A DNA stretch of 20,012 nt from a virus, in IMG/VR virus record IMGVR_UViG_3300037585_004319, positions 1 through 20,012 of that record; one strand, written 5' to 3'. This document shows positions 309 through 629 of this stretch, piece after piece (the first letter of the stretch is position 1; each line of letters opens with the position of its first letter). The position numbers and the translations under genes were made by a program. Under the pieces are notes generated by a model, which saw nothing but the letters and a program-made list of their open reading frames with translations, was not told the origin of the DNA and made no database searches.

Positions 309-330
309 TATACTGTCCGCATGTCCAGTA
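309..330 (+). promoter_or_regulatory. Probable LexA (SOS) operator overlapping a -10 box and the start codon
   Basis: Bases 311-330 read TACTGTCCGCATGTCCAGTA. The gammaproteobacterial LexA consensus is TACTGT, eight mostly A/T bases, then ACAGTA. Here the left half-site matches 6 of 6 and the right half-site 5 of 6, with the correct 8-base spacer, although the spacer is GC-rich rather than AT-rich. A -10-like TATACT lies at 309-314, overlapping the operator; no good -35 box is seen at 16-18 bases upstream. The geometry suggests a promoter directly repressed by LexA. The match is strong by eye but was not scored against a weight matrix. Confidence 0.6.
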
Positions 331-629
331 TCTCCCTCACCATCAAACAACAGTGGGCCGGCTGCCTCGTCGTCCACCCGTGGAGCCGCGCCCAGATCGG
401 CGTGCGGCGCAAAGGCGGCGGGCTGCGGTACGTCCCTTTCGGCGGCCTGCTCCACAAATCCTGGCTCCCCCTGTGGGTCACGCCCGTGGCCCTGGCGGTC
501 ACCGGCTGGAACTACTCTGACGCCCATCAATCGGACCAGCGGCACATCATGTCCGGGTTCGTGGTGGGCGCCCTGATCGAGCAGCGGGCCTTCGTCGTGC
601 TCTATGACGGACGCCCGAAAGAGGTCTGA
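321..629 (+). CDS. Hypothetical 102-aa protein, possibly SOS-induced and leaderless
   Basis: This ORF runs from ATG at 321 to TGA at 627-629 and is the only gene I accept between rmf and the end of the phage operon. I do not recognise the family. The product has a basic N-terminal half and a hydrophobic stretch near residues 48-62 (WLPLWVTPVALAVTGW) that could be one membrane helix or a buried core strand. It ends in a charged GRPKEV tail. No Shine-Dalgarno sequence precedes the ATG. Instead a -10 box (309-314) ends only six bases before it, so the transcript would begin at or near the A of the AUG. The start codon also lies within the LexA-like operator. It could be a prophage accessory gene or a host gene. 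A longer minus-strand ORF across the same bases (237-776) is less credible because it runs out of frame through the end of the gene at 733-933. Confidence 0.5.
   Translation: MSSISLTIKQQWAGCLVVHPWSRAQIGVRRKGGGLRYVPFGGLLHKSWLPLWVTPVALAVTGWNYSDAHQSDQRHIMSGFVVGALIEQRAFVVLYDGRPKEV

Follow-up and report, generated by a model that had tools for sequence, protein, structure and literature searches.

We find that nt 321–629 of the window, the whole stretch of DNA analyzed (a virus record of 20,012 bp), probably encode an attP-proximal accessory gene of a temperate gammaproteobacterial phage, belonging to the SOS regulon of the host, with LexA acting at nt 311–330 and a message that is leaderless or nearly so. 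Judged from the sequence, we give this reading a probability of about 0.75. The features on which the argument draws are:

1–125, + strand: 3′ end of the host rmf gene (ribosome modulation factor), Pfam PF04957, E 1e-6

202–220, + strand: intrinsic terminator of rmf, from a terminator scan

253–276, + strand: paired GGCGTAA repeats that probably serve as integrase arm sites in attP, as the layout in contig L007 suggests

309–314, + strand: −10 box TATACT, at the same 6-base distance from the ATG in aligned relatives

311–330, + strand: candidate LexA operator TACTGTCCGCATGTCCAGTA, which overlaps the −10 box and includes the ATG, matrix rank 1 in the window

321–629, + strand: 102-aa accessory gene of apparent SOS type, under purifying selection, probably a distant PHROG 15882 branch and leaderless or nearly so

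The start region reads TTTATACTGTCCGCATGTCCAGTA. Direct reading bears out the preliminary description of this DNA, which had placed the end of the −10 box TATACT six bases (315–320) before the ATG at 321–323, and the ATG inside a 20-bp palindrome at 311–330. The palindrome has perfect TACTG/CAGTA arms, and its core is CTGT-N8-CCAG, with one mismatch against CTGT-N8-ACAG; CCAG also occurs in several of 20 E. coli LexA sites. The same description held that there is no Shine-Dalgarno sequence, and in fact no match of at least 4 nt is found in the window or in nine relatives. Eight of these ten sequences are without an alternative in-frame start before the upstream stop. Homologues that begin upstream with a conserved ribosome-binding site, named at the outset as evidence against the proposal, were looked for and not found. 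A consensus promoter scan finds no promoter at the gene start, and no good −35 is recognizable there. The missing Shine-Dalgarno sequence, the conserved spacing of a −10 box ending six bases before the start, and the absence of a better start favor the leaderless-type promoter proposed earlier.

Scored with a LexA matrix, as had also been proposed, nt 311–330 form the top site of the window. The E. coli matrix, built from 20 sites, gives 15.1 bits; in 60 simulated windows it finds a single site of at least 13 bits and none of 15. With a hybrid matrix, in which the spacer is taken from LexA-type boxes of a host-like genome family and combined with the E. coli sites, the score is 22.0, the runner-up in the window reaches 8.2, and the maximum in 100 simulated windows is 20.7. 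The homologous site ranks first by the hybrid matrix in eight of ten contig sets, second in L001 and third in L004. Its sequence varies somewhat: CTGC stands in place of CTGT in L002 and L004, and the box ends in CA in L001 and L006. A second LexA-like site lies 103 bp upstream in L002 (4653–4672, AACTGACCAAAAAGACAGTG) and L004 (3226–3245, GACTGACCAAAAAGACAGTG), which are the two contigs with the CTGC main box. The spacer fits the host-family boxes with p 0.02 for the window, where it is not special once the ATG is taken as given (p 0.27), and with p 4.5e-5 for L006.

The closest match found to the rmf gene is in genome G209 (76%), whose family serves as a proxy for the lineage of the host. 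The G209 family has boxes of the TACTGTCCTTATGTACAGTA and TATACTGTCCATAAGAACAGTA types upstream of genes that, from their translations, we take to be, among others, imuA-, umuD-, integron-integrase- and coaBC-like and radical SAM genes, and TATACT is often the −10 at its LexA-type boxes. In most of the host-family genomes the box matches exceed those of a reversed-pattern control, and nt 311–330 are only two mismatches from a LexA-type box of host-family genome G437. The phage promoter is overlapped by a box of host type, with one core mismatch (CCAG). The LexA site on the phage thus appears to be of the kind that the host lineage itself uses, with the ATG as a natural part of its center: the consensus of this lineage happens to supply an ATG there.

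The gene is intact or partial in fourteen further contigs, with only a remnant in L015 (both L014 and L015 are incomplete). The homologues form two groups, sharing 96–99% and about 75% identity with the window protein, and TATACTG, the 6-base gap, the missing Shine-Dalgarno sequence and CCAG all persist although the upstream DNA varies with the integration site. Because the differences in group 1 are distributed over the codon positions as 18:10:319, and dN/dS between the groups is approximately 0.16, the 102-aa ORF encodes a genuine protein that is strongly constrained by purifying selection. The gene seems dispensable from L015 860–1110, where an internal deletion has removed its 3′ part and the following spacer and where the −10 is TACACT. 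The window family is found only in uncultured phage contigs; no homologue turns up in collections of phages or plasmids with the E threshold at 1, in 46 genomes of the host-like family or in 369 gammaproteobacterial genomes. A match in Methylobacterium (L016) is spurious, being antisense of a sensor kinase gene.

Window bases 3–223 share 74% identity with the rmf region of G209. Past base 223 the homology to G209 ends, related phage contigs become homologous from about 228–237, and this switch places the host/prophage junction just past the rmf terminator, at about 221–237. In L007, pairs of GGCGTAA repeats flank a core, GATTCCTCTTTCCGGCACCA, which is the 3′ end of a tRNA-Thr, and the order across attP is integrase, GGCGTAA pair, core, GGCGTAA pair, promoter, gene; this layout makes the gene the outermost one beside attP. 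The window prophage sits beside the rmf terminator while its close relatives use tRNA genes, and the same edge gene is retained. A gene for an SOS-response-associated peptidase (SRAP) follows directly, after a gap of approximately 10 bp, in all six group-2 contigs. Group 1 is without SRAP and resembles group 2 again beyond it. The rmf 3′ end, the homology switch and the SRAP neighbor in six contigs together agree with the earlier placement of a phage accessory gene at the rmf/prophage boundary.

The preliminary description assigned the 102-aa protein to an unknown family. This can be refined: it probably represents a distant offshoot of PHROG 15882, a family without an assigned function. This PHROG is weakly matched by 12 of 12 members of the window family (hmmscan E 0.0026 for the window protein, 3e-4 for the best member), and hhalign gives probabilities of 43.8% and 93.1%, the latter (E 3e-7) for the branch of plasmids and telomere phages. 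A Vibrio prophage protein matches PHROG 15882 strongly, and its profile matches the plasmid and telomere-phage proteins. The likeness to these proteins of Vibrio prophages, telomere phage HY01 and Vibrio plasmids consists of weak but consistent profile matches over residues 23–101, a frequent position at the edge of the element, and a LexA box close by in two other lineages; on the other hand, identity is only approximately 20% and the window protein is about 20 aa shorter than most. In the Vibrio prophages a box, mostly of 24.6 bits, is kept between the integrase and the gene, about 17 bp from the integrase start. It may serve the integrase instead and, being equally well placed for it, gives partial support only. 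On a V. coralliilyticus plasmid the gene is preceded, at 36 bp, by a 22.2-bit box with TATACTGT. No LexA box is found near the gene in telomere phage HY01, where it comes after a replication gene, or in several plasmids. Neither Pfam, PADLOC nor PDB provides an assignment for the window protein, NCBIfam and PDB matches are insignificant, and AlphaFold gives no usable model (pLDDT 39). For a Vibrio relative a modest all-beta model is predicted (pTM 0.65), with no convincing PDB or viral structural match. The Vibrio prophages vary after the PHROG 15882 gene (L080, 1537–4414), with annotated defense genes that include type IV restriction and Septu PtuA; this region beside the integrase is a defense hot spot.

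The palindrome could in principle be an accident of a conserved −10 box meeting the likewise conserved codons for Met-Ser-Ser, in which case the gene would be expressed in lysogens without LexA control. Indeed, most of the left arm belongs to the −10 box and codons 2–4 form the right arm, one arm is broken in several relatives, and the serine codon AGT can arise by chance. However, the matrix rank and the simulations, the fit of the L002, L006 and L013 spacers to host-type boxes, the LexA boxes near distant homologues and the SRAP partner all argue against a coincidence, which we regard as unlikely. An inverted repeat over the promoter of a phage-borne gene could also be an operator for CI, the repressor of the phage itself, but the repeats in the ci/cro region of L096, a relative, are of the AACCGCCGGTT type and do not resemble nt 311–330, and this explanation is extremely improbable. 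The LexA operator proposed earlier is instead favored by conservation in 15 contigs, the matching host-related boxes and the boxes near distant homologues. The preliminary description is right about the anatomy and probably right about the regulation: LexA control with a leaderless or near-leaderless message is likely, and the gene is probably made only upon DNA damage in the host. In a lysogen, host LexA bound to nt 311–330 would shield both −10 box and start codon and keep the gene off. DNA damage would remove LexA, RNA polymerase would start at or beside A321, and the message would be translated without a Shine-Dalgarno sequence. In the sister phage group the same transcript would probably run on into the SRAP gene.

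What the protein does is a matter for weaker inference. Because of the SRAP linkage, and because relatives occur on plasmids and, in a telomere phage, adjoin a replication gene, we suggest that it may act on DNA-damage or replication processes while the SOS response lasts, and not directly on the phage repressor. One alternative is an antirepressor that would inactivate the repressor of the phage, as do Tum of 186, GfoA/GftA of Gifsy and AntC of N15, whose genes are small, LexA-controlled and outside the immunity region (PMC3121763). The window gene is likewise small, outside that region and, as it appears, LexA-controlled, and the Vibrio relatives resemble 186, their CI being of the PF07022+PF16452 type and lacking an S24 peptidase. 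An antirepressor would go with a repressor that is not self-cleaving, but in both groups of window-type phages CI has an S24 peptidase domain, with Ala-Gly, Ser and Lys positions that we read as those of cleavable repressors (the window fragment itself does not include ci). With such a CI an antirepressor is not needed. Moreover, in the Vibrio phage a 23.6-bit LexA box accompanies a different small gene, and on the plasmids that carry relatives the stretches read give no hint of a phage repressor, making this role quite unlikely. An SOS-timed excisionase or integration helper bordering attP and the integrase would suit a basic protein (pI 10) whose gene is the first beside attP in the window family and lies beside the integrase in Vibrio prophages. 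However, the telomere-phage and plasmid relatives are not next to an integrase, the Vibrio-prophage relatives are not basic, the fold predicted for a relative is all-beta, unlike winged-helix Xis, and the Vibrio phage already encodes a Cox/Apl-like protein of its own; we consider such a role very unlikely. An accessory protein acting during the SOS response is thus favored over an antirepressor or an excisionase. More tentatively, PHROG 15882-like proteins could be a so far overlooked group of SOS effectors of mobile elements in marine gammaproteobacteria. They would be spread over prophages, telomere phages and plasmids, would have come repeatedly under the control of host LexA, and might work together with SRAP or target RecA or replication.

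Among LexA-controlled prophage accessory genes this one is a clearly defined variant. It resembles tum of 186, gfoA/gftA with dinI of Gifsy and antC of N15 in small size, position outside the immunity region and, on our reading, direct LexA control, but differs in having no recognized sequence relation to them, a phage repressor that looks self-cleaving, and a leaderless arrangement in which the operator extends across the start codon. With phage-encoded SRAP/YedK (PF02586) it shares an SOS context (PMC3765255) and direct adjacency in six contigs, though the 102-aa protein is not itself SRAP and group 1 has none. If our reading is correct, the gene adds an uncharacterized protein family to the mobile-element genes switched on via the host SOS response, in a compact form where one 20-bp operator covers both promoter and start codon. 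The other small LexA-box gene mentioned above, in Vibrio phage PE003 (L132, 10606–10867), encodes 73 aa (PHROG 5581, unknown function) with the box just upstream, and is a candidate antirepressor for the 186-type CI of that phage.
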